Part shown: in pieces, positions 20,259 to 42,091 of the stretch
Position numbering within the stretch: position 1 is the first letter of the stretch
How the letters are laid out: the number at the start of each line of letters is the position of its first letter
NCBI RefSeq assembly: GCF_013337045.2
Contig: NZ_CP118259.1
Location: 1,860,001 to 1,924,000, forward strand
Origin: Agrobacterium vitis
Lineage (GTDB): Bacteria; Pseudomonadota; Alphaproteobacteria; Rhizobiales; Rhizobiaceae
Length of the DNA: 64,000 nt
Reading direction: 5' to 3'
The notes under the pieces: generated by a model
The model's input: the letters and a program-made list of their open reading frames with translations, nothing else
The model's database searches: none
What the model was told of the DNA's origin: nothing
Program-made: the position numbers and the translations under genes

Positions 20259-21251
20259 TCATAACTCTCCCTCTTGTCTCTCCATCCACCAGCGGAGCGT
20301 GTCCAATCGGCGGCGTGTTTCTTCTTGCTTGGCGCTGGACCAGACCGAAGAGTACATTGATCCTCCTGCAACAAGAGAGGCATGCAATTCAGCCTCTTTA
20401 GTTGCGTAAAATTCCCAAGCTTCTTGAGCCTTGTCAAACAAGTTGACGTCTAATTCGCCGCGCTCCTTAATAGACGTGATAATATCATCCATTTCCCTTT
20501 CATGAGCAGCCAAAGAAGCCCCGGCTTGGGCATTTATTTCAGTCTGCGTCCTAGGCACAGCATCCCGCAACGTTTCCACGAGCACCCAGTCAGCCGCCTC
20601 AATGAACTCCCCCGCTGCCCTTAGGAAACCATCAATCTGTGACGTTTGAAATGCCGGTTCGCTCGGAAGTTCATGGGTTACAATATGACGCACGGTGAAT
20701 AGGCTAGACAGATTCGCCATCATCAAATCGTAGTCGGAGATGATTGGGTCTAACGGCCATTCCTCTCTCTCTTCGATCCATCTAGGATGAGAAACTTTGA
20801 GCCGCTGAACGAAATCGGGGATCAATGCAGAGAGATAAGCAACAATACGACCGGGTTCATTGATGGACACAGTGTGAGCGATGAGATCTCCGATGGATAC
20901 CTTTCGCCCTTGGAGACCCGCCAGCAACGCGAAATCCAACCTAGCACCTTTAGAAAGCGCTTCTGCCTTCTCCAAATAAGGAGATCCCTCTTCGATGAGT
21001 TCGCGGATAGCCTCTCTTGTAAATACTTCGATGATCGTGACGAGCCGCATAGGTATAAAATCGGCAAACTCTGCGGCGTATTCCGCTTTAGACCTCCACA
21101 AAACACTAAGCCTTTGTAGGTCATAGGCCATCATAAAACTAGAACCGGACTGCCCGCGGCGCTTTTTCCATTCCAGCATATTTTCAATATCGGATTTCGC
21201 CATATAGACTTTCCCGAGTCCGAGCTGATATCGTTTTCGAAGCATAGACAT
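20259..21251 (-). CDS. HEPN-type protein fused to an LprI-like domain, cargo gene
   Basis: This encodes 330 residues. The N-terminal two-thirds is helical and contains LFTVRHIVTHELP (~200), an R-x4-H motif typical of HEPN ribonuclease domains. The last ~100 residues (TQTEINAQAGASLAAHEREM, KAQEAWEFYATKEAELHA, GGSMYSSVW, ETRRRLDTLRWW) follow the pattern of the LprI/DUF1311 lysozyme-inhibitor domain, but without a signal peptide and without its usual cysteines. It probably acts in the cytoplasm as a toxin-like RNase with a helper domain. Same GC-poor island as the nuclease-like gene; 67 bp separate their ends. Confidence 0.6.
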   Translation of the reverse strand: MSMLRKRYQLGLGKVYMAKSDIENMLEWKKRRGQSGSSFMMAYDLQRLSVLWRSKAEYAAEFADFIPMRLVTIIEVFTREAIRELIEEGSPYLEKAEALSKGARLDFALLAGLQGRKVSIGDLIAHTVSINEPGRIVAYLSALIPDFVQRLKVSHPRWIEEREEWPLDPIISDYDLMMANLSSLFTVRHIVTHELPSEPAFQTSQIDGFLRAAGEFIEAADWVLVETLRDAVPRTQTEINAQAGASLAAHEREMDDIITSIKERGELDVNLFDKAQEAWEFYATKEAELHASLVAGGSMYSSVWSSAKQEETRRRLDTLRWWMERQEGEL

Positions 21252-21407
21252 GTTTTAGAAATGCTGAAGTCCATTATAGCTACTTTAAAATCAGATGGCA
21301 GCGGTCTCCTTCCGACATAATAGCAGACAAAATGCTTCGGGAGCTTTGCGCGATAAAATACCATCTCCGTTTATTTCGTTCGCCGCCTCCCTGACCGGTT
21401 CGAAACA

Positions 21408-21593
21408 TCACCGACCAATAAACTCCCACAACTCATCCCTTTCCCTCTCCGACAGCGCGTTTTCCTCTTCCGGCACATTCGCTTTCATCCAGCCGTCGAC
21501 CGCCGCAAAGAACTGGAACATGGACATGGCGCGGACGGCTTGCGGGCTGAAGCCCATGGCCGAGCCATTGCCGTAAATCGCGGCAAATCTCAA
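21408..21593 (-). CDS. Tail assembly chaperone, second component
   Basis: This encodes 61 residues from a TTG at 21593 that overlaps the TGA of the preceding gene (TTGA). The segment GFSPQAVRAMSMFQFFAAVDGWMKAN-like helix is typical of small phage tail-assembly chaperones that follow a GTA-gp10-type protein. In lambda the equivalent part is made by a -1 frameshift. Here the frames are also -1 related, but no canonical slippery heptamer in the right register is seen, so stop/start coupling is preferred. It would coat the tape measure before tube polymerisation. Confidence 0.75.
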   Translation of the reverse strand: MRFAAIYGNGSAMGFSPQAVRAMSMFQFFAAVDGWMKANVPEEENALSERERDELWEFIGR

Positions 21594-21973
21594 CTTTCCG
21601 TTGGGAAGGTCGTCGAGGGCATCGCCCCCTCCTGATTTGCCGCGTCTGGCTCCCCCGGCTTTTCATCCGGCGCGCCGACGATGCCAGCTGTCAGAATCGC
21701 CTGGGCAAACAGCAGATTTTCAGCGGGCGGGCGGGCCTCAACCCATTTGCGCACCAGAGTAAGCGCCTCGACCGGCGACTTGCCGCCGCCGATCAGGCCA
21801 AAGCGGATCACATGGGAGATGTCCCCGACGCGCCAGGTGCTGGTCTGGAGCCGGTCGAGGATCACATACGGCCCGGCATCGCAGGCTTCCTGCAATCCTT
21901 CCAACTCACCCCAGCCGAGACGGAAGGTGTAATCCCCATCCGCCCAGGTCAATGTCAGCTCGGCATTCCTCAT
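21590..21973 (-). CDS. Tail assembly chaperone, GTA gp10-like
   Basis: This encodes 127 residues from ATG 21973, overlapping the tail-tube stop codon by 4 bp. The N-terminal ~75 residues (LTWADGDYTFRLGWGELEGL, then VILDRLQTSTWRVGDISHVI) match the gene-transfer-agent family/gp10 chaperones found after the tail tube gene. The C-terminus is disordered (EKPGEPDAANQEG). It works with the next gene in holding the tape measure. Confidence 0.83.
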   Translation of the reverse strand: MRNAELTLTWADGDYTFRLGWGELEGLQEACDAGPYVILDRLQTSTWRVGDISHVIRFGLIGGGKSPVEALTLVRKWVEARPPAENLLFAQAILTAGIVGAPDEKPGEPDAANQEGAMPSTTFPTES

Positions 21974-22413
21974 TTCTGGGCAACCACGCGGGTCATCTTG
22001 CCGTCGCTCTGCATCGAGATGCTGGCCGTGGCGCGCTTGCCGTTGTCGCCAGCACCTTCGAACTTCTCGACATGCATGCGGCCGGTCCAGGTGATGGTCT
22101 TGGCCGGGAACTCCCATTCGACCTTGACCGGAATGCTGTCGATGTCTTCCCAAGCATCGAGCCAGGTCTCAACGCTTTCCTGCGCCAGAACACCCTCGCC
22201 TGAGATCGACATGGAGAGCGACGAGGCATCGCGACCGACCCAGTCGACGGTATCGGGATCATCGCAGTCAGGGATAGAGCTTTCTTCCAGACCCTTGTCG
22301 AGCGACACCGACCGCTGGGTAAAGCCGCAAGGGGCGGAATAGACGATAGGGGTGGCGGAATTTCCGAGCAGAACACGGATCTTCCCGCCACGCATGGTGG
22401 TTGCTTGTGCCAT
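21970..22413 (-). CDS. Major tail tube protein
   Basis: This encodes 147 residues. GGKIRVLLGNSATPIVYSAP at the start and the central TVDWVGRDASSLSMSISGEG match the phage major tail protein family (TIGR02126-like). These are beta-sandwich proteins that stack as hexameric rings to form the tube. Good AGGAGG ribosome-binding site upstream, as expected for a highly made protein. Position between the tail-completion and chaperone genes agrees. Confidence 0.85.
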   Translation of the reverse strand: MAQATTMRGGKIRVLLGNSATPIVYSAPCGFTQRSVSLDKGLEESSIPDCDDPDTVDWVGRDASSLSMSISGEGVLAQESVETWLDAWEDIDSIPVKVEWEFPAKTITWTGRMHVEKFEGAGDNGKRATASISMQSDGKMTRVVAQK

Positions 22414-27893: not shown

Positions 27894-29723
27894 TTATTGA
27901 TGTATGGAATAATCCGGGTCATCCCATGGGGATGCCTGGGAGGCACGAACACGACACATCGCCATGCCCATCGACATGGCCAAAGACACCATGCCGTCGA
28001 TGCGGCCAAAGGCATGTTCCTTGTCGAACATCCGATGGCCGGTGCGGTTTTCTGCAAAGACGGTGCTGGCCGCACAACTGTCCAGCATCGGGTTCGGGTC
28101 GATCTCGATGCGCGTCTCATAGAGCGCATTCTCGAGCTTGTTGATGCTATGCGGCATCCAGAGATAGATATCCTGCTCACCATCAGGTGCATTTGGATCG
28201 CGCTCCAGCACCCGGCGCTGGAAGCCCTGAGGGTGGATGGTCAGCGGTAGGGAAACACCCTGATCCTCCAAATGCTCGGACAATTGCTCCAACCCGTACT
28301 GGTCGGCGCCGATCTCTGTCGGTTCGAACTTTGCGCAGATCTCGGCCAAGGCTTCTGCCAGCCAGGGATATTTGAGCCGCTGGCCCGGCACCGCCTCGAT
28401 AAAACCCTGGTCACGCCAGAGGTCATAGGGGGCCTGGTCGGTATTGGCCCGATCCTCCAGCGTATCGGCCGGGGTCCAGAACCAGGTCTTTGACGCAAAC
28501 CGCTCTGCATCCTTGGTACTGTCCAGGACCCAGATCAGGGTCAGCGCGGTAAAGTCACGGGTGCGCGACAAATCGAGGCCGCCATAGCAGGGAAAGCCCT
28601 CGGCGATCAGCCAGTCAAGATCAAGATCCTTCTGGCAGGCCATCCAGGCCTCACGCTTGATTGCCGCATTGACCGATTGCGTCCATTCGCAAAAGTGCAG
28701 CCGGGCAATGCCGTTTCGTTTGCCGGGCATCATCCGCGCCTGGTCAACGACCCCATGCAGATAATCCGTGGTGATCGTCACATCCAGCAGCGGGTTTGCC
28801 TTCACCCAGCAGGACGGATCATTCTCCCAATCATCGCCCTCATCGAGCGAGCAGACAAAAGCGAATGTCGTATCGTCCTGGACGATGCCCGCCGCAACGT
28901 TGACCGCATGCTGATGCTCTTCCCAGCAGATCGATTTGCGGTCCGACCCGGAATTGGTTGCCATCACCAGCAACGGCTGTTTGCGGAATTTAAAGCCGCG
29001 TTCCAGCATTTCGATGACATCCCGGTTGGGATGTTCATGCACCTCATCGCACAGCGCACAGGACGGACGCGGACCCGATTGCGCCTTGTCAGCCGAGATC
29101 GGTTTGAAGAAACGCTTGTCGCCACCTTTGCTGATATAGGTCAGTTGCCAGACCGGGTTTTCCCCCGAGGTGGTAATCCGCCGCATCAGTTCCGGCGACT
29201 GGTCGCGCATGGCAACCGCATCACGAAACAGCACCTGCGCCTGATCTTTCTTGGCAGCCGCCGCATAGATCTCGGCACGGGGTTCGCCATCGGCCACCAT
29301 CATGCAGATGCCGATCCCGGCCAGCAATGGCGATTTGCCGTTGCCCTTCCCCTCCTCGTCATAGAAGCGCCGGAACCGACGCAAGCCGGTATCGGCCCAT
29401 TTCCAGCCGAACAGCGAGCCGACCCGGAAAGCCTGGCTCGGATGCAGCCGAAACCGCCGTCCCTCGAATTGCCCGCCATTCAGGCGCAGCTTGGACCCGA
29501 ACCACTTGATCCGCGTGTTCGAGGTCTCCAGATCCCAGACCAGGCCACGGGCCGGACCGTCGATGAGATCGCGCAGGTGACGGCGGCAGGCATTGCGAAC
29601 ATGGGGACCGGCAACGATGTCGCCGCGCACCACATCCGCCGCCCAGGCGGTCACCGGATCGTCGTCATAGCTGACATCCGGGATCTCGACATCAATCGAA
29701 TCCATCATCGGTCGGGAACTCAA
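27894..29723 (-). CDS. terL: Terminase large subunit
   Basis: This encodes 609 residues if translation starts at TTG 29723; ATG 29708 or 29705 are alternatives. Motifs of the packaging ATPase are visible: a Walker A-like region around DEEGKGNGKSPLLAGIG, the Walker B/DE box SCALCDEVHEHPN, and in the nuclease half YGGLDLSRTRDFTALTLIW and EIGADQYGLEQL with acidic metal ligands. The protein cleaves and pumps phage DNA into the prohead. Overlap with the small subunit gene shows coupling. Confidence 0.94.
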   Translation of the reverse strand: MSSRPMMDSIDVEIPDVSYDDDPVTAWAADVVRGDIVAGPHVRNACRRHLRDLIDGPARGLVWDLETSNTRIKWFGSKLRLNGGQFEGRRFRLHPSQAFRVGSLFGWKWADTGLRRFRRFYDEEGKGNGKSPLLAGIGICMMVADGEPRAEIYAAAAKKDQAQVLFRDAVAMRDQSPELMRRITTSGENPVWQLTYISKGGDKRFFKPISADKAQSGPRPSCALCDEVHEHPNRDVIEMLERGFKFRKQPLLVMATNSGSDRKSICWEEHQHAVNVAAGIVQDDTTFAFVCSLDEGDDWENDPSCWVKANPLLDVTITTDYLHGVVDQARMMPGKRNGIARLHFCEWTQSVNAAIKREAWMACQKDLDLDWLIAEGFPCYGGLDLSRTRDFTALTLIWVLDSTKDAERFASKTWFWTPADTLEDRANTDQAPYDLWRDQGFIEAVPGQRLKYPWLAEALAEICAKFEPTEIGADQYGLEQLSEHLEDQGVSLPLTIHPQGFQRRVLERDPNAPDGEQDIYLWMPHSINKLENALYETRIEIDPNPMLDSCAASTVFAENRTGHRMFDKEHAFGRIDGMVSLAMSMGMAMCRVRASQASPWDDPDYSIHQ

Positions 29724-30159
29724 ATCCTAGCTGGCCGGTCGCCTGCAAGCCGCGTTCGGCAGATGGCGTCATACCAAAATCACTCGCCAGCGCCCGGATC
29801 TGCCGCCACGTCTCATTCAACTGGCTGACCTCCGGGCGGCTCTTCAACTGGGTGCCGTTGCGGGTTTGGCTCTCATAGGTTTCCCCGCCTTCCCGCACAT
29901 CGAGCCGCAACCGCTCATGACGGGCTATTGTCCAGCAGAGCTGTTCGAACATGTAAACGTTGATTTCATTCAGTCGGTTCTTGCGGGGATCACACAGCGG
30001 CGGCGCGATCCGGTCCCAGATGGCGCGCACCTCGAACGGCAGTTCATCCGGCCGCAGCTCCCGCGCCTTGGCCGCCGCCCGCGCCTCGAAGTTCGCCCCC
30101 TGCCCATCCTCGGCTTTGAGCGGGACCACGTTTTCGGAGGTAGGTTTGCGGCCTTTCAT
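29692..30159 (-). CDS. terS: Terminase small subunit, P27 family
   Basis: This encodes 155 residues from ATG 30159 with an AAAGGA ribosome-binding site; a longer frame to 30222 would add a hydrophobic stretch that belongs to the cargo junction. The start KGRKPTSENVVPLKAEDG, LPFEVRAIWDRIAPPL and MFEQLCWTIARHERLRLDV match the P27 small-terminase family, which recognises the packaging start site. The first ~90 bp of this gene are duplicated at 31226-31315, the footprint of cargo insertion upstream. Confidence 0.88.
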   Translation of the reverse strand: MKGRKPTSENVVPLKAEDGQGANFEARAAAKARELRPDELPFEVRAIWDRIAPPLCDPRKNRLNEINVYMFEQLCWTIARHERLRLDVREGGETYESQTRNGTQLKSRPEVSQLNETWRQIRALASDFGMTPSAERGLQATGQLGFEFPTDDGFD

Positions 30160-30234
30160 CCCAAATCCTTTACAGAGTAGAAAAAACAAACCAACGCAAT
30201 CTGGAGCCAGAAATTTGAACAAAAAAAGATTTTT

Positions 30235-31083
30235 TTAGTCATCCTCATGGGATTGGCCAGGTCTCTTGTATCTTTCGTCCCGACCTTCAAGGCTTGAACT
30301 CTCAAAACCTCTACGCCATACTAAATCTGAATTATATTCGTCTTCTTCAATCCATGAAAATACAGCGTCTTCTAAACGGAAAATGTATCCTAGCTTATTT
30401 GTCTTTGAATTTCTAAACCAAGCTGCCAATCTTGACGGCAATGTTTCACAAACAATTGCTCCAGCAATGAGTTGCTGGACCGCCTTTCGTGCACTGATTT
30501 GCTGACTGCCAATCCCCCAGGTTATGACCGTAAAATCTTCCAGAGGAGATTTGAGGTGAGATGCATCTGCCTCTGCAATCTCTTTCTCCGTTAAGTATAG
30601 CTTCACAAGTTCAAACCGCCGCCAAACATCATCTGCCTTCTTATTAAGTTCGCGAGCTGCTGAAACCACCTCTTCACGACCAAGGTCAGGAAACAATGCC
30701 TGCTTCCCAATAAATATTAGCGGCGATCTACCATCTAACGGCCTTTGAGAAATAAAGGAAGATTTGTATACAAAATTCCTATCTTTAAATACTACCCCCC
30801 TAAGCTGGTCTAAATCGCTACAGACATCTCTCAGTCCCGAAAGCATCATCGCCATCTCGGCGTTGCGGCTAGATGCAATCAATGCCCGCTCAGAAATGCT
30901 AAGTTGCTGTTTGGTAAGATACACACTTGAAAATGACGCGAGTAGAGCCACTATGGCCGTTATCTCACCAAAACCTAAACTGAGCTTATTTTTTAATTTT
31001 TCTCTGCCTATCAGTTTGGAAACACGATCATGCCGTAATATTTCTCGGCGTCTCCTTGGCTCAAATTTCCTGATCATTTCCAC
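30235..31083 (-). CDS. Cargo gene A: single-pass membrane protein, unknown
   Basis: This encodes 282 residues from ATG 31083 with a GGGGTGGAA site. A basic cytoplasmic N-terminus (FEPRRRREILRHDRVSKL) precedes one transmembrane helix (LGFGEITAIVALLASFSSVYLT, residues ~36-57). A soluble ~220-residue domain follows that is helical and rich in charged and aromatic residues. I recognise no family. GC content is clearly lower than the phage backbone. It lies between a 49-bp repeat and the intact terminase small-subunit gene, in the same orientation as the late operon but with its own leader. Likely an accessory defence or exclusion gene. Confidence 0.65.
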   Translation of the reverse strand: MEMIRKFEPRRRREILRHDRVSKLIGREKLKNKLSLGFGEITAIVALLASFSSVYLTKQQLSISERALIASSRNAEMAMMLSGLRDVCSDLDQLRGVVFKDRNFVYKSSFISQRPLDGRSPLIFIGKQALFPDLGREEVVSAARELNKKADDVWRRFELVKLYLTEKEIAEADASHLKSPLEDFTVITWGIGSQQISARKAVQQLIAGAIVCETLPSRLAAWFRNSKTNKLGYIFRLEDAVFSWIEEDEYNSDLVWRRGFESSSLEGRDERYKRPGQSHEDD

Positions 31084-31180
31084 CCCATAAATTCAATTAT
31101 CTGCTATTAAAGAAAACAGGCAGTTACTCAAGTAGCTGGCAACAAGCCTACTTATTTTTGAATGGATAATTGCTGAGAGT

Positions 31181-31229
31181 GGCTTTTTCCCTCCAATTTC
31201 CGCTGGCTACACAGAAATGATAAACGCCG
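31181..31229. repeat. Cargo-site repeat R, copy 1
   Basis: 49 bp beginning GGCTTTTTCCCTCCAATTTC match copy 2 at 32956-33004 at 45 of 49 positions. In transcription order it lies just before cargo gene A and overlaps the end of the terminase fragment. Confidence 0.85.
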
Positions 31230-31314
31230 CCGCCCGTGCCTCGAAGTTCGCGCCCTGGCCATCCTCGGCTTTGAGGGGCACGACGTTTTCGGAGGACGTG
31301 TTGCAACCCTTCAT
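31207..31314 (-). pseudogene. Duplicated 5' fragment of the terminase small-subunit gene
   Basis: The first ~30 codons read KGCNTSSENVVPLKAEDG in place of KGRKPTSENVVPLKAEDG, then continue QGANFEARAAA before running into repeat R and stopping at TAG (FIISV). Nucleotide identity to 30071-30160 is about 85 percent over 90 bp. It keeps an ATG and a CAGGAG site, so a 35-residue peptide could still be made. It is a relic of recombination at the 5' end of terS. Confidence 0.88.
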
Positions 31315-31377
31315 GGTAAAATACTCCTGTGAGACTTTGCAGCTTATAACAGAAATTAAAACACGCTTATCTTCATT

Positions 31378-32841
31378 TTATATATTACGAATTATTTTGA
31401 AAAAGCTCTTATACAATTTAATTATCTCGCCACGTAATATTTCATATGTTGTTTTTTTTGTTTCAAAACCGTAAAAAAACATGTGATTAAAAACATCATT
31501 TTTTATCTTATCTAAGTTGTTTTGGCTAGATTTTATCCTTTTCGCTTCAATTTGGTATTTAAATATATCAATAATATTAAACACATCTTGTCGATTTATA
31601 ATTTTATTATCAAATAGGTATTTTATATTTAAAATAAGCTTATCCACGATCAGCCCTGAATTGATGTTAGATACTCTTTCAATCAAAAAGAATGCCTGAC
31701 TGACATTTACATTGCTTAACTGTTCGTGCGGGAAGAAAAATTTAAAAGCTTCAATGACACCATTTACCCTACGCTCATAACGCACAGAACATATGTAAAG
31801 ATCAATAATGTCGTTCTTCGAGAAGCAGCGATCAAACCAGACGGCCAAAAAGATCTCCACAATCTTTCTACGCACCGAACCACCAGACATTTTCAAAAAC
31901 AACGTTCTGGCTATCTGCTGGGTTATCGTTGAGCCTCCGCTACGTTTTCCTCGCTTCAAATAGCGGTATGCTGCTGCGAATATTGCTCTTAAACTGACAC
32001 CATGGTGCTTATAAAAAGCCCTATCTTCCAACGCCACAAGTATAGTCCTAAAAATCTCGACTGGAACACCAAGCCTTTTTGCCTCCATTACAGACAATCT
32101 AGATCTGTAAATTATATATTCAAAATTTAATTCAATTTTTTGACGTAAAATCCTAGCAGTAAATACAGATACAATACGAAATATACTCTCGTATTGGTCG
32201 AGCAAGTGTAATCGATAATACAGCGCCACAAAAATTCCCCACAAAAAACTCAGAGCAATTGGAAAAAAATTATATCCAAAAACAAAATATTTCTCTCCAA
32301 GCTGAAACTTAGGAAAAAACAACCAAACAAGGACACCTGAAGTAATTGAAAGGCAATATACTGGAACAGCCTTCGGCGAAATCCACCCATGAAACATACG
32401 CAAGTGGTATGGTTCATTTGCACCTTCAATTCGCTTATTAGGCAGCACCAACTCTATATGGCCATAACTGAGACCGAGCATACGCCTTAATATTATAATT
32501 TTACGACTAGATAATACTACAGAACGTCGTGTATCAGCAAAATATGACGTAGACGCCAAAGTAAGCAATACAAAAACGATTACGAATGCGGCTAGCGTAT
32601 GAGTACTTTCAATTCCATTTTTAAGTGCTCCCTCGACTCGAACAGCGTTGTCTTTATAGAACGCCGCCGCAACACCTATGAAACCAAGTAAGACTGATGT
32701 CGACATATTGAGGACTTTACCCTCGCTTGCGAGAGTTGATGCGGCAAGATCATACTCCTTTAGGGCGACCTCAGTAGCCTCTTTAGAAAGATGATAAGTC
32801 GGGAAATATTGCTGATCTTTAATTCTGGTCGTTTCAATCAT
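31378..32841 (-). CDS. Cargo gene B: four-helix membrane protein with GT51 glycosyltransferase domain
   Basis: This encodes 487 residues. Four hydrophobic segments lie at ~43-62, ~83-103, ~160-180 and ~195-215. Residues ~270-385 are a peptidoglycan glycosyltransferase (GT51) domain: LVALEDRAFYKHHGVSLRAI with the catalytic glutamate, SGGSTITQQIARTLFLKMSG, and RRKIVEIFLAVWFDRCFSK with the second glutamate. No transpeptidase domain is present. The positive-inside rule suggests the GT51 domain faces the cytoplasm, unusual for this enzyme class. Very AT-rich (well below the phage average), so acquired. Flanked by repeat R on one side and the terS fragment on the other. Confidence 0.75.
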   Translation of the reverse strand: MIETTRIKDQQYFPTYHLSKEATEVALKEYDLAASTLASEGKVLNMSTSVLLGFIGVAAAFYKDNAVRVEGALKNGIESTHTLAAFVIVFVLLTLASTSYFADTRRSVVLSSRKIIILRRMLGLSYGHIELVLPNKRIEGANEPYHLRMFHGWISPKAVPVYCLSITSGVLVWLFFPKFQLGEKYFVFGYNFFPIALSFLWGIFVALYYRLHLLDQYESIFRIVSVFTARILRQKIELNFEYIIYRSRLSVMEAKRLGVPVEIFRTILVALEDRAFYKHHGVSLRAIFAAAYRYLKRGKRSGGSTITQQIARTLFLKMSGGSVRRKIVEIFLAVWFDRCFSKNDIIDLYICSVRYERRVNGVIEAFKFFFPHEQLSNVNVSQAFFLIERVSNINSGLIVDKLILNIKYLFDNKIINRQDVFNIIDIFKYQIEAKRIKSSQNNLDKIKNDVFNHMFFYGFETKKTTYEILRGEIIKLYKSFFKIIRNI

Positions 32842-32955
32842 TTAAGCCCACTCAATCGCGATTGCGCATCGCATATCAGAATAAGCTACAACCTTAAGCC
32901 AATCAGTAAGCGTCAAGCAAACTTTTAAATCACGACCCTAGACACACAATAAGAT

Positions 32956-33004
32956 GGCTTTTTCCCTCCAATTTCCACTCGCTACACAGAAATGACCAAC
33001 GCCG
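32956..33004. repeat. Cargo-site repeat R, copy 2
   Basis: 45 of 49 bases identical to 31181-31229. It lies between the HNH gene and cargo gene B. The 1.77 kb from copy to copy contains cargo B plus the terS fragment. Confidence 0.85.
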
Positions 33005-33067
33005 GTGCGGGAGGCGGATCGGGTTCAAGGCTGACCCACCCCCTGCCCTCGACCATCGTCCGAGGGG

Positions 33068-33397
33068 TCACGTCCGGTTCGCCGGGTGTCTGGGATCGGT
33101 GGGCCAGCCATTCGCGCCCATGGCTGTCGAGAAGCCGCGATGTTCTTCCCGCTGTTTGGTCGCGTCGTGATGCTTCTTGCACAAGGTCTGGAAAGGTCCG
33201 TTCCAGAACTTCTCCGCATTGCCGCTATGACGTTCAATGTGATCGCAGACGAAGCCCTTCTTGAGCCTCCCTTGCTGCCTACACATCCGGCAATAGGGAT
33301 CCCGCTTCAGCTGGATTGCCCGGATGGCTCGCCACCTCGTAGTGTAGTACCAAGAGCGCCAGCCCTTGGCCTCATCTGATCTCTGATCTGTCGCCAT
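33068..33397 (-). CDS. HNH endonuclease
   Basis: This encodes 109 residues. Two zinc-binding pairs (YCRMCRQQG and TLCKKHHDATKQ) enclose the core GFVCDHIERHSGNAEKFWNG. This is the HNH fold of phage nucleases that partner the terminase in HK97-like packaging. It is the first gene of the late operon, directly after the intrinsic terminator at 33408-33436. The gap to the small terminase gene, which the two are normally close to, is filled by the cargo. Confidence 0.9.
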   Translation of the reverse strand: MATDQRSDEAKGWRSWYYTTRWRAIRAIQLKRDPYCRMCRQQGRLKKGFVCDHIERHSGNAEKFWNGPFQTLCKKHHDATKQREEHRGFSTAMGANGWPTDPRHPANRT

Positions 33398-33407
33398 ATC
33401 CTAGAAC

Positions 33408-33436
33408 GCAAAAAGGCGACCCATCGGCCGCCTTGT
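33408..33436 (-). terminator. Intrinsic terminator between early and late genes
   Basis: On the leftward strand AAGGCGGCC pairs with GGGTCGCCTT and is followed by a T-run, ending 10 bp before the HNH start codon. A weaker hairpin (AGGCG/CGCCT) lies near 33567-33581. Position suggests a control point for late transcription. Confidence 0.75.
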
Positions 33437-33603
33437 CATCGTTCATCTGGTCATAGCTTACGCACTGGCCCTGAATCGCATCGCCTATTGGCTTGGATCA
33501 GAGCGAGGCCGGGGGAGAACATCAATCCCTTGGGAGCATCATACGCCCCGGTCATCTCGGTTGGAAAGGCGCTGTTCGCCTCTCCACGTTTCAAGCGATA
33601 ATC

Positions 33604-34260
33604 TCAGGCCGAAATGAAGTCAATCCCCATCGTGATTTCGCTCATTCCGCCGAACAACGGCACGTCAACGACCACCTGGCCACGCTTCGACAGCACCTTG
33701 CGCACTGTCACCACGAAGTCGACAAACGGGCCAGAGCGGATCGTCACCTGCTTGCCCAGCACATCTGGCATCGGTGGAACATCCCGCCCATCCATATGTT
33801 TTCTCTCCGCTTTCTTGGCAGACAGCATCAGTTGGCGCATCAATGATTCGGGCATCAGGTGCGGCTTGCCATCCTTGCCCATCAGCCCGCGCAGCTTGGA
33901 TGCAAGCATCAATCCGACGAAGGCTTCATTGTCGGGAATGACCTGCACGAACAGGTAGCCCCGAAACAGCGCCCGCTGGATATCCACAGCTTGCTTGCCG
34001 CGTCTGGGAGGCAATCTCAACCGCTCGAAGGGGCACCAGCACTCGATTTCCTGCTGTTCGAGCGAACCGCGGATCGCCTCTTCCATGCCGCTCTTGCAGC
34101 TCGCCACCACCCACCGGGCCAAGCGGTCGAACTCAGGCCGATCGCGCCTTGCCATGGCAACCTGTCGCTGCCGCTTGGCCTCGATAGCGTTGATGTAAGC
34201 CAGCCTCGACAAGCCATCATCCGAGACGCCATCCAGAAGTTTCCCGTTATGCTGCATCAT
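33604..34260 (-). CDS. Phage NusG/RfaH-like transcription elongation factor
   Basis: This encodes 218 residues. Residues ~47-130 form an NGN domain: RWVVASCKSGMEEAIRGSLE, IECWCPFERLRLP, then RALFRGYLFVQVIPDNEAF. The C-terminal ~55 residues are a KOW-type barrel: LGKQVTIRSGPFVDFVVTVR and KRGQVVVDVPLFGGMSEITM. NusG paralogues travel with RNA polymerase and often act as operon-specific antiterminators. This one is the last early gene, followed by a terminator and then the late operon, which suggests a late-gene activator. Overlaps the replication gene by 14 bp. Confidence 0.85.
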   Translation of the reverse strand: MMQHNGKLLDGVSDDGLSRLAYINAIEAKRQRQVAMARRDRPEFDRLARWVVASCKSGMEEAIRGSLEQQEIECWCPFERLRLPPRRGKQAVDIQRALFRGYLFVQVIPDNEAFVGLMLASKLRGLMGKDGKPHLMPESLMRQLMLSAKKAERKHMDGRDVPPMPDVLGKQVTIRSGPFVDFVVTVRKVLSKRGQVVVDVPLFGGMSEITMGIDFISA

Positions 34261-35530
34261 GGGTGCGTCCCTCGCTCAGGCTGGTTTGGAAATGGTCGAG
34301 TGCCGCCTCGACCGCCGCGTCGAGATCGGGCTGATCCGGGTCAACGGGCGGGAAATAATTCCAGTCGCGCAGGCCCTCGACGAACATCCAGCCACGGCGT
34401 TCGTGCAGGCGCTTCCAGGCTGCAAACAGCGCACTGTTGCTTTCGACCCGCTCGAAGCTGGCAACCAGCGGCAGCAAGTCCACCGAGGTGACGAACGGCT
34501 CATTGCGGCGGGCAAGGTCGCGCATCCGGCTCACCAGCGGCCAGCCGTGTTCCCGGCGCTTTTCCCACACCAGGGCTTCCCGGCTGATCGCGCCGGAAGC
34601 CAGCCGCCGATTATCGAACGCCGTGAACACGAACTGGCCTGTCGGCTCGCAAAGCAGCGTTTCCAAGCGCCGCCCCATCCAGAGCTTGCCGCAAACCTTG
34701 GCGGTGGCATGGGTTTGGACCGCCTGGGCAACCTCAGGCATTTTTTCCCAAGCCCGGTCTCGCAGGAACACAGCGGCGAAGGTGAACGTGCCTTTGCCGA
34801 TCCACTGGATGTAGGCCGGTGTTTTCTCGATGCAGGCTGCCCGCTGATCAGCCGTCAGGGCAAACCAAGCCTTCCTCGCTGCCGTGTCGCTGCTCTTGTC
34901 GTAATTCGGCCAAGTCGGATACCAGCGCTTGAAGGCGAGATCGATCTTTCGCAATTCCTCTCTCGAAAATTCCCCCCGCCCCGCGCCTGCGGTGGGAGAG
35001 TTGTTTGGAGAGTTAGCTGGAAGAATCTTATCTTGGTGGAGCTGCTCCACCACCTTTGTGGAACCATTTCCACCACCTTCGGGCGCCATTTCCACCACCT
35101 TTTCCGCGCAAGGCGGTGGAGCTGTTCCACCACCTTCCGGCAAAATCTCACCCTCAAAAGGTGGTGTATCTCCTCCACCAGCTTGCGCATTTGCGACAGA
35201 AGCGGCGGCAGCACTGCCCGTCAGATCGCGGCCAGGCCAGCGGGCGATATACTCGTTTCGCTTCCACTTCTGCCCACGAAAGCCGTGCTGGGTGACCTCG
35301 ATCCAGCCCGCCTGTTCGGCAACATCGAGATGCTTCAGGATTGTTTTCTTATCCAGACCAGACAGTTCGACCAGTTCGGAAACCGGCGGATAGCAAGAGC
35401 CACCCGTGGCATCCATCTTCAGGCCGAGCGTGTGCAGCACCAGTCGCGTGATCGGCGGCAGGCCAGATTTGGCAACGGCATGACGCCAGGACCATGCCCG
35501 CGACGTTGCTCCGTGATCAGGCTCCATCAT
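34247..35530 (-). CDS. Phage replication protein with N-terminal winged helix
   Basis: This encodes 427 residues. The N-terminal ~95 residues (LVLHTLGLKMDATGGSCYPP, VSELVELSGLDKKTILKHLD) are a winged-helix DNA-binding domain like those of phage O-type/replication-initiation proteins. A glycine-proline-rich linker (~110-195) is encoded by the iteron-like repeats. The C-terminal ~220 residues are helical (FKRWYPTWPNYDKSSDTAAR and onward) and may contact helicase or loader. It likely melts the phage origin situated within its own gene. ATG overlaps the preceding stop (ATGA). Confidence 0.75.
   Translation of the reverse strand: MMEPDHGATSRAWSWRHAVAKSGLPPITRLVLHTLGLKMDATGGSCYPPVSELVELSGLDKKTILKHLDVAEQAGWIEVTQHGFRGQKWKRNEYIARWPGRDLTGSAAAASVANAQAGGGDTPPFEGEILPEGGGTAPPPCAEKVVEMAPEGGGNGSTKVVEQLHQDKILPANSPNNSPTAGAGRGEFSREELRKIDLAFKRWYPTWPNYDKSSDTAARKAWFALTADQRAACIEKTPAYIQWIGKGTFTFAAVFLRDRAWEKMPEVAQAVQTHATAKVCGKLWMGRRLETLLCEPTGQFVFTAFDNRRLASGAISREALVWEKRREHGWPLVSRMRDLARRNEPFVTSVDLLPLVASFERVESNSALFAAWKRLHERRGWMFVEGLRDWNYFPPVDPDQPDLDAAVEAALDHFQTSLSEGRTHDAA
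35046..35166. repeat. Iteron-like direct repeats, putative phage replication origin
   Basis: TCCACCACCTT occurs four times in direct orientation at 35046-35056, 35069-35079, 35091-35101 and 35126-35136 (steps of 23, 22 and 35 bp). An inverted partial copy AAGGTGGTG lies at 35158-35166. Steps near two helical turns and the position inside the initiator gene recall lambda ori within gene O. An AT-richer stretch lies at 35001-35034. Confidence 0.65.
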
Positions 35531-42066: not shown

Positions 42067-42091
42067 AAGGGAATGGAGGCCTCGCCCGGAA
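42067..42091. repeat. attR: right attachment core of prophage 1
   Basis: Identical over 25 bp to 1461-1485. It covers the 3' acceptor arm and part of the T arm of the intact tRNA-Cys gene, so integration rebuilt a complete tRNA. Confidence 0.92.

Follow-up and report, generated by a model that had tools for sequence, protein, structure and literature searches.

A variable-cargo slot beside a predicted cos site in HK97-type phages of the Rhizobiaceae, with two contents apparently stacked in an Agrobacterium vitis prophage

Background

How do two unrelated genes come to lie side by side in a prophage, each preceded by the same short repeat and followed by the beginning of the same terminase gene? 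The question is raised by a locus in a 64,000-nucleotide stretch of the Agrobacterium vitis genome (contig NZ_CP118259.1, positions 1,860,001 to 1,924,000; hereafter the window, to whose positions all coordinates refer unless another locus is named). A probable prophage of some 40.6 kb lies in the window at a tRNA-Cys gene; a 25-bp repeat is found at 1461-1485 and 42067-42091, overlapping the tRNA-Cys end and near an integrase gene. On the minus strand, where all features of the locus lie, the order is HNH endonuclease gene, repeat R copy 2 (R2), cargo B, a 5' fragment of the terminase small subunit gene terS, R copy 1 (R1), cargo A, intact terS and the terminase large subunit gene terL. A sequence-only reading had proposed that R and the terS start anchor a dedicated cargo slot in a whole phage group, at a new position, and that alternative contents from related phages were stacked there. 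Having compared the locus with its relatives, we consider it highly probable that this is the variable-cargo slot of a clade of temperate HK97-type phages, located between a cos site (of which R would be the left-end half) and the start of terS, and that two contents are stacked in it here.

Variable gene content between HNH and terS

Two direct repeats stand far above the background of the 7-kb region searched, as the seven other families found there are only 21-25 nt long and 71-76% identical. One of them pairs the 5' end of terS (30071-30159) with its truncated copy (31226-31314; 76/89 matches, 85% over 89 bp), the scar of the stack, which comprises codons 1-29 plus two bases. The other consists of R1 (31180-31229) and R2 (32955-33004; 46/50 matches, 92% over 50 bp). 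The two overlap by 4 bp (31226-31229), the terS fragment thus continuing straight into R1. The duplicated arrangement is therefore confirmed, as is the claim that the cargo genes are unrelated to each other, cargo A and cargo B giving no blastp match at E 0.01. The slot region has no match in its own genome except itself.

A TerS search of 63 genomes of the genus gave matches in 11, and in a sample of 394 genomes from the family, which overlaps the genus set, four had a match at E 1e-20, of which two belong to other genera; the locus set also draws on named genomes and viral contigs. The named TerS relatives come from Agrobacterium vitis, Allorhizobium, Rhizobium, Neorhizobium and Shinella strains. 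Both slot edges are visible in 15 clade phages, namely the window, L017-L021, L023-L029 and the viral contigs L046 and L047; L022 and L029 are very likely the two ends of one prophage split by assembly, because their printed overlap is identical. R is found in all 15 loci. The slot is empty in four (L017, L018, L019 and L027), R being followed by 17-19 bp and then by the terS ATG, and in the 11 others the same interval holds 0.5-2.8 kb of cargo; cargo is also present in L049, of which only the terS side is visible. Close relatives thus carry different genes at the same locus, together with empty and alternative states, as cos-adjacent hotspots do, and the prediction of a cargo slot in a phage group holds: the DNA between HNH and terS contains varied genes beside R, not constant intervals. 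What we observe is a variable slot, its edges, its varied contents and two different terS alleles.

The slot borders were mapped by aligning six close phages to the empty L017. The alignment is continuous across the site for L018 and L019; for the four others (L020, L021, L046 and the window) it breaks at most 6 bases from the last base of R and from the terS ATG. These alignments around the site extend from 4.5 kb (L020) up to about 14 kb, with further breaks between terS and terL in L046, at a 1.55-kb insert in the window and in a variable upstream early region. In a TerL tree of 24 rows the window groups with L017-L022 and L046 (95/93), whose slots are empty or hold unrelated cargo, and this group is nested in a 16-row clade (80/96) that includes every occupied slot in the tree. 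The HNH gene of L021 is about 70% identical to those of L017-L020, L046 and the window, and rep, nusG, terS and terL are 88-97% identical in the same comparison (70%, 95%, 90%, 91% and 95% for HNH, rep, nusG, terS and terL of L021 against the window). Such a divergent HNH gene amid near-identical flanking genes indicates that a slot-adjacent segment was exchanged.

The packaging module and the nature of R

The left neighbour of the slot is an HNH endonuclease gene of the packaging-associated kind (33068-33397; phrog_2323 HNH endonuclease, E 1.2e-31; Pfam HNH only below its cut-off). Its right neighbour is terS (29692-30159), encoding a terminase small subunit of the Terminase_4/P27 kind (Pfam Terminase_4, E 1.1e-20), followed by terL (27894-29723; Pfam TerL_ATPase and TerL_nuclease; phrog_9, E 2.1e-124). 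An HNH gene beside a P27-type terS and an HK97-type terL is the make-up of an HK97-type packaging module. HK97 is described as having 3' cohesive ends of 10 nt and a TerS that binds beside an A-tract, at +15 to +29 bp on the inner side of the cut (PMC11331095, PMC5557969).

Most of the relatives' HNH-terS intervals contain a G-rich box, an ACCGG core and a block GGAAATTGGA...AAAAAGCCA; R is the portion from CGGCG to ...GCCA. In the window the G-rich box (GGGGGTGGGTC, 33033-33043, the sole such match in the window) lies between HNH and the predicted cut, and R2 ends in ...AAAAAGCCA at the slot edge. R occurs in empty sites as well as occupied ones, and far outside the clade, so that the idea of R as a cargo border had to be given up, and R was likewise rejected as a mobile-cassette end. 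It is instead a conserved non-coding element, for which the left half of an HK97-type cos site would be the best fit. The predicted overhang is 33004-32995 (CGGCGTTGGT), a putative 10-nt cosN placed by profile alignment with weak scores, its length being borrowed from excerpts on HK97 (PMC11331095), and the left end of the virion DNA would start at 32994, reading down. R would then comprise the overhang and the sequence up to the end of a conserved box, a possible TerS-binding site, immediately after which the slot would begin. R1, whose equivalent of the overhang reads CGGCGTTTAT, lacks both the G-rich box and the predicted cut site's upstream part. Rfam models gave nothing at gathering scores in 28000-35000.

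The profile behind this prediction has 38 members, comprising 30 of the 38 printed intervals from outside the clade, minus L120 and L157 (no recognisable core), plus nine clade phages and R2; its intervals were thus picked because they contain the core. Seven phage intervals were scanned with it, each alongside 200 block shuffles. Better matches than any shuffle (0/200 as good) were given by a Klebsiella phage (E 2.5e-6), RHph_TM3_3_14B (1.5e-4) and NV1.1.1 (0.23). The ends of the linear records deposited for HK97 and Pantoea phage AH07 fall, with weak scores, in one and the same column of the profile, which in R2 separates GGT from CATTTC, the predicted cut being the ACCGGCGTTGGT/CATTTC junction (for AH07, as for S20, these are ends of the deposited record and only putatively physical DNA ends).

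What the slots hold

An all-against-all comparison took in 16 cargo proteins, drawn from L049 and from all but one of the eleven complete occupied slots. With just four related pairs (L023a-L024a, L023b-L024c, L023b-L047 and L024c-L047), they fall into 13 unrelated groups. Among them are a restriction-modification pair in L028 (a C5 methyltransferase and a NotI-type endonuclease), a full-length match to the PADLOC defence candidate PDC-S71 in L020 (E 5.6e-125) and a PAS-HWE histidine kinase in L026. The PADLOC scan covered 11 of the 16 proteins, those of L023 and L024 being left out, and its weak matches below E 0.1 were to PtuA for L029 (0.011) and DruM for cargo B (0.052). The L021 cargo has no homologue beyond itself at E 1e-3 among the candidates scored, and the slot of L025 is 499 bp long with no clear gene. 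Genes could be assigned in ten of the complete occupied slots; they run antisense to terS in eight (L020, L021, L023, L024, L026, L029, L046 and L047) and in the sense orientation in two (both genes of the window, and L028). The G+C content of the cargo is 0.36-0.56, against 0.60 for terL-portal, and a scan for promoters and terminators gave little above shuffles. We infer that defence may be a role of the cargo; the slot offers a place to search rhizobia and agrobacteria for phage-defence genes not yet described, with orphans making up many of its genes.

Cargo B (31378-32841, 487 aa) combines long N-terminal helices with a GT51 peptidoglycan glycosyltransferase domain (Pfam Transgly, E 6.7e-31). 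It belongs to a coherent family, 361 proteins matching at E <= 1e-3 among those scored, and in an alignment of 26 sequences E272-D273, G302-G303-S304-T305 and R325-K326-E329 are invariant, residues that we take to be the catalytic motifs. The best Protein Data Bank (PDB) matches of its structure model (pLDDT 83.4) are 3vmt, a membrane-bound transglycosylase of S. aureus, and 2oqo, a class A penicillin-binding protein (PBP) glycosyltransferase; these matches are partial (query TM 0.21-0.30), and no confident match covers the long N-terminal helices. Cargo B could possibly block superinfection at the envelope. Cargo A (30235-31083, 282 aa) is an orphan with one probable N-terminal membrane helix (by eye). 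It has no family above cut-off in Pfam, PHROGs, PADLOC or NCBIfam, apart from one sub-threshold UBA match, and among 2766 candidates no protein but itself matches at E <= 1e-3.

Further observations concern individual slots. Just ahead of terS, the slots of L026, L028 and L046 share a short right-hand junction (AAATCAATCAGGA...) despite their unrelated cargoes, and recombination may have used it as an anchor. Related small genes occur in different combinations in L023 (two genes), L024 (three) and L047 (one), a second kind of stacking; L023 and L024 have no extra copy of terS or R. A cargo B relative (58% identical; L198:8332-9783, genome G041 of another species of the genus) lies among seemingly chromosomal genes, as judged by eye, which indicates no more than that the gene travels.

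The stacked junction

The terS fragment matches the terS of L017 and L046 at 81 of 89 positions and that of its intact neighbour at only 76. Twelve codons differ between fragment and neighbour, eight of them synonymously, which argues that the fragment diverged mainly within a working gene and was truncated later. The non-synonymous changes are T7S, also seen in relatives, and three adjacent ones at residues 4-6, positions that do not vary among the eight TerS proteins compared. Furthermore, the AGCGG variant of R1 is common to L020, L021 and L029. The stack thus probably combines material of two related phages, as the sequence-only reading had it; what did not stand is the proposed route, the junction not being one of R-R or terS-terS homology. 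The fragment is joined to R1 at terS nt 89, and its end (GGCGGC) and the start of R1 (CGGCG) have a 4-bp overlap located at the first bases of the predicted overhang.

The simplest account of this junction would be a join between terS of the cargo-B phage and DNA of the cargo-A phage starting at the latter's left cohesive end. Alternatively, selection alone could favour the R1 junction, as a stack with a second complete cos would be open to excision by terminase. We suggest, as a tentative and rather doubtful proposal, that the stack may be a fossil of cohesive-end recombination, the left end (R1-cargo A-terS) having been joined via four bases (CGGC) of the predicted overhang into the terS of a second phage. 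If so, the absence of the upstream cos half from R1 would account for the stacked phage still being packaged whole, and terminase-cut ends would be a common engine of cargo turnover at cos-adjacent hotspots of unrelated packaging families. In any case the scar can be dissected, and it bears on what drives gene turnover beside cos; the stacked contents hint at how such slots get swapped, in a clade that is mostly dormant in plant-associated bacteria.

A slot probably bounded by cos and terS, and the alternatives

In the explanation that we favour, cargo would be accommodated because nothing essential lies in the 17-19 bp between the TerS box and the terS start codon, so that the slot edges would be set by cos function on one side and by the terS reading frame on the other. 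Low-G+C, mostly antisense cargo is what would be expected of genes expressed from the prophage, some of which may be phage-defence genes. Contents would probably be swapped by recombination of related phages within the conserved flanks, and the stack would have arisen when codon 30 of terS in the cargo-B phage was fused to DNA of the cargo-A phage, the latter at or next to its left cohesive end.

A number of results weigh against this explanation or parts of it. The cos profile scores weakly on HK97 (E 0.3) and AH07 (0.49), with 0/200 shuffles as good in each case, S20 (E 45) is equalled by 6/200 shuffles, and Y3_1 gives no match. The HK97 alignment stops at the cut, leaving the box to its right unaligned, and that of AH07 deletes 10 nt including the ACCGG core. 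Promoter-like sites in the window (9) are near shuffle level (mean 6.7, sd 3.0), and recognised defence genes are found in only 2/11 occupied slots, with PADLOC run on 11 of the 16 cargo proteins. As to the stack, L017 terS is equally near both halves (82/89 to the intact gene, 81/89 to the fragment), so no donor is identified, and a single example cannot separate cohesive-end joining from selection. The scar has been seen once, in the window, and was not found in relatives; of the findings that the sequence-only reading held would speak against it, namely the same two genes in all relatives, or R and the terS fragment being absent elsewhere, this is the only one made. Synonymous divergence along terS was also tried as a mark of an exchange tract and rejected: codons 1-20 rank second among 107 stretches compared, yet the same is seen in empty out-group phages.

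Two alternatives concern the nature of the site. R could be the leader of the late operon (a terS promoter or translation leader) into which cargo lands, and not part of cos; it does lie just before terS, it has a GGAG stretch and leaders can be conserved. We consider this unlikely, as most terS copies by eye keep a purine-rich stretch near their own ATG even where cargo intervenes, the conserved block takes in the G-rich box and ACCGG core upstream of R, and the HK97 and AH07 record ends align at one column. Less likely still, indeed very improbable, is that the cargo is a mobile cassette of its own (transposon, integron-like or homing element) targeting R or the terS start. Its sharp boundaries, and the endonuclease VII gene at the equivalent place in RHph_TM3_3_14B, would fit such an element, but neither terminal repeats nor a dedicated recombinase came to light: no inverted repeats flank the cargo in the window, a recombinase profile search of 14 of the 16 cargo proteins found none, and the slots have little terminal DNA in common, apart from the right-hand junction shared by three of them and the related genes of another three.

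Two more alternatives accept the slot. A single phage could have produced the stack by tandem duplication and a later exchange of one cargo for another, as the identical order of elements in both halves, the single known example and the modest allele difference (81 against 76 of 89) would allow. This is disfavoured by the terS allele comparison, the fragment being nearer to L017 and L046 than to its neighbour and most codon changes being synonymous, and by the R1 variant found in three other phages, and we think it fairly unlikely. A much closer call, to which we give somewhat less than an even chance, is that the site simply tolerates insertions and serves no common function, its contents being neutral or diverse host traits and not defence genes. 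The histidine kinase, the glycosyltransferase, the many orphans and the scarcity of recognised defence genes all agree with it. The restriction-modification pair and PDC-S71 do not, mostly antisense genes of lower G+C fit prophage-expressed cargo, and by analogy comparable sites in P2-like phages and P4-like satellites, described in excerpts as rich in antiviral systems (PMC9122126), may point to defence.

Distribution outside the clade

The occurrence of the slot was surveyed in 70 loci (57 from a set of 73, and 13 others), which include 12 clade rows (some of them duplicates), three loci without HNH or terS (L160, L163 and L166) and 55 from outside the clade. HNH lies upstream of terL in 67 of the 70. 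In 54 of the 55 outside loci the gap between HNH and terS is at most 250 bp (47/48 after removal of near-duplicates); it is 416 bp in L172, where by eye the extra DNA falls between HNH and the cos-like element. Filled slots in the loci surveyed are almost restricted to one clade. In E. coli, 9 of 5,426 genomes carry the HK97 terS end and HNH end, and among the matches listed these abut without an insert in eight of the nine. Two named rhizobial phages outside the 55 have longer intervals. In Rhizobium phage RHph_TM3_3_14B, a gene annotated as endonuclease VII separates the cos-like element from terS, an independent occupant of the equivalent place. In phiLM21 (L202, record 21013-22088) a tRNA-Met and an 83-aa open reading frame (ORF) lie in the HNH-terS interval of about 1.1 kb, in which no cos-like element was recognised by eye.

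Comparison with known hotspots

The hotspots of P2-like phages and P4-like satellites are, in the available excerpts of Rousset et al. (2022, PMC9122126), single loci directly beside cos with different genes in each relative; P4 contents are found in either orientation and include type II restriction-modification systems. The slot described here resembles them in being a single locus, predicted to be cos-adjacent, whose contents vary among relatives (PMC9122126). The claim of a new position appears to hold for a cos-terS slot in HK97-type phages, though the slot is not wholly new in kind. It differs in packaging family and host class, in that the cargo lies between the predicted cos and terS of an HNH-containing HK97-type module, and in that the one stacked locus still shows a junction where the cohesive end is predicted. 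How P2/P4 contents are exchanged is a matter of speculation in those excerpts (PMC9122126), and a cohesive-end fossil, if that is what the stack is, would be direct evidence for such a mechanism. If cos adjacency, and not P2/P4 biology, makes hotspots, an unrelated packaging family should have one, which is probably the case here. HK97 has the same gene order and an HNH gene, and its record ends between HNH and terS, as far as excerpts go (PMC11331095, PMC5557969), yet neither HK97 nor E. coli genomes, among the matches listed, have cargo between cos and terS. The open-access literature matches listed, consulted as excerpts, contain no description of a cos-terS cargo slot in HK97-type or rhizobial phages. 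What appears to be new is thus the presence of such a slot in the HK97-type packaging family of Rhizobiaceae phages, and a stack junction at the predicted cohesive end.

Prophage accessory genes beside packaging genes are known from phi80 and from JBD26, a Mu-like phage. In excerpts, the Tai gene of the phi80 moron locus is placed simply upstream of the packaging module, not relative to cos (PMC11364771). The Tab/anti-Tab genes of JBD26 form an antisense moron with its own promoter beside the terminase genes, and differ from the cargo described here in lying between terS and terL, on the other side of terS (excerpts of PMC10884400). Inserts at the JBD26-like place were also seen among our loci, in L046 and in L159 and L161. 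That of L046 (6466-7914) is a second insert of about 1.4 kb, with a 395-aa ORF that has no Pfam, NCBIfam or PHROG match. The distant relatives L159 (4566-5987) and L161 (same interval) have a terS-terL interval of about 1.4 kb, in L159 with a 473-aa ORF that by eye resembles a ParB-domain DNA methyltransferase. Elsewhere in the window, the 1.55-kb insert relative to L017 (36389-37943) covers the greater part of a 545-aa ORF whose domains are of the MT-A70 methyltransferase and ParB-like kinds.

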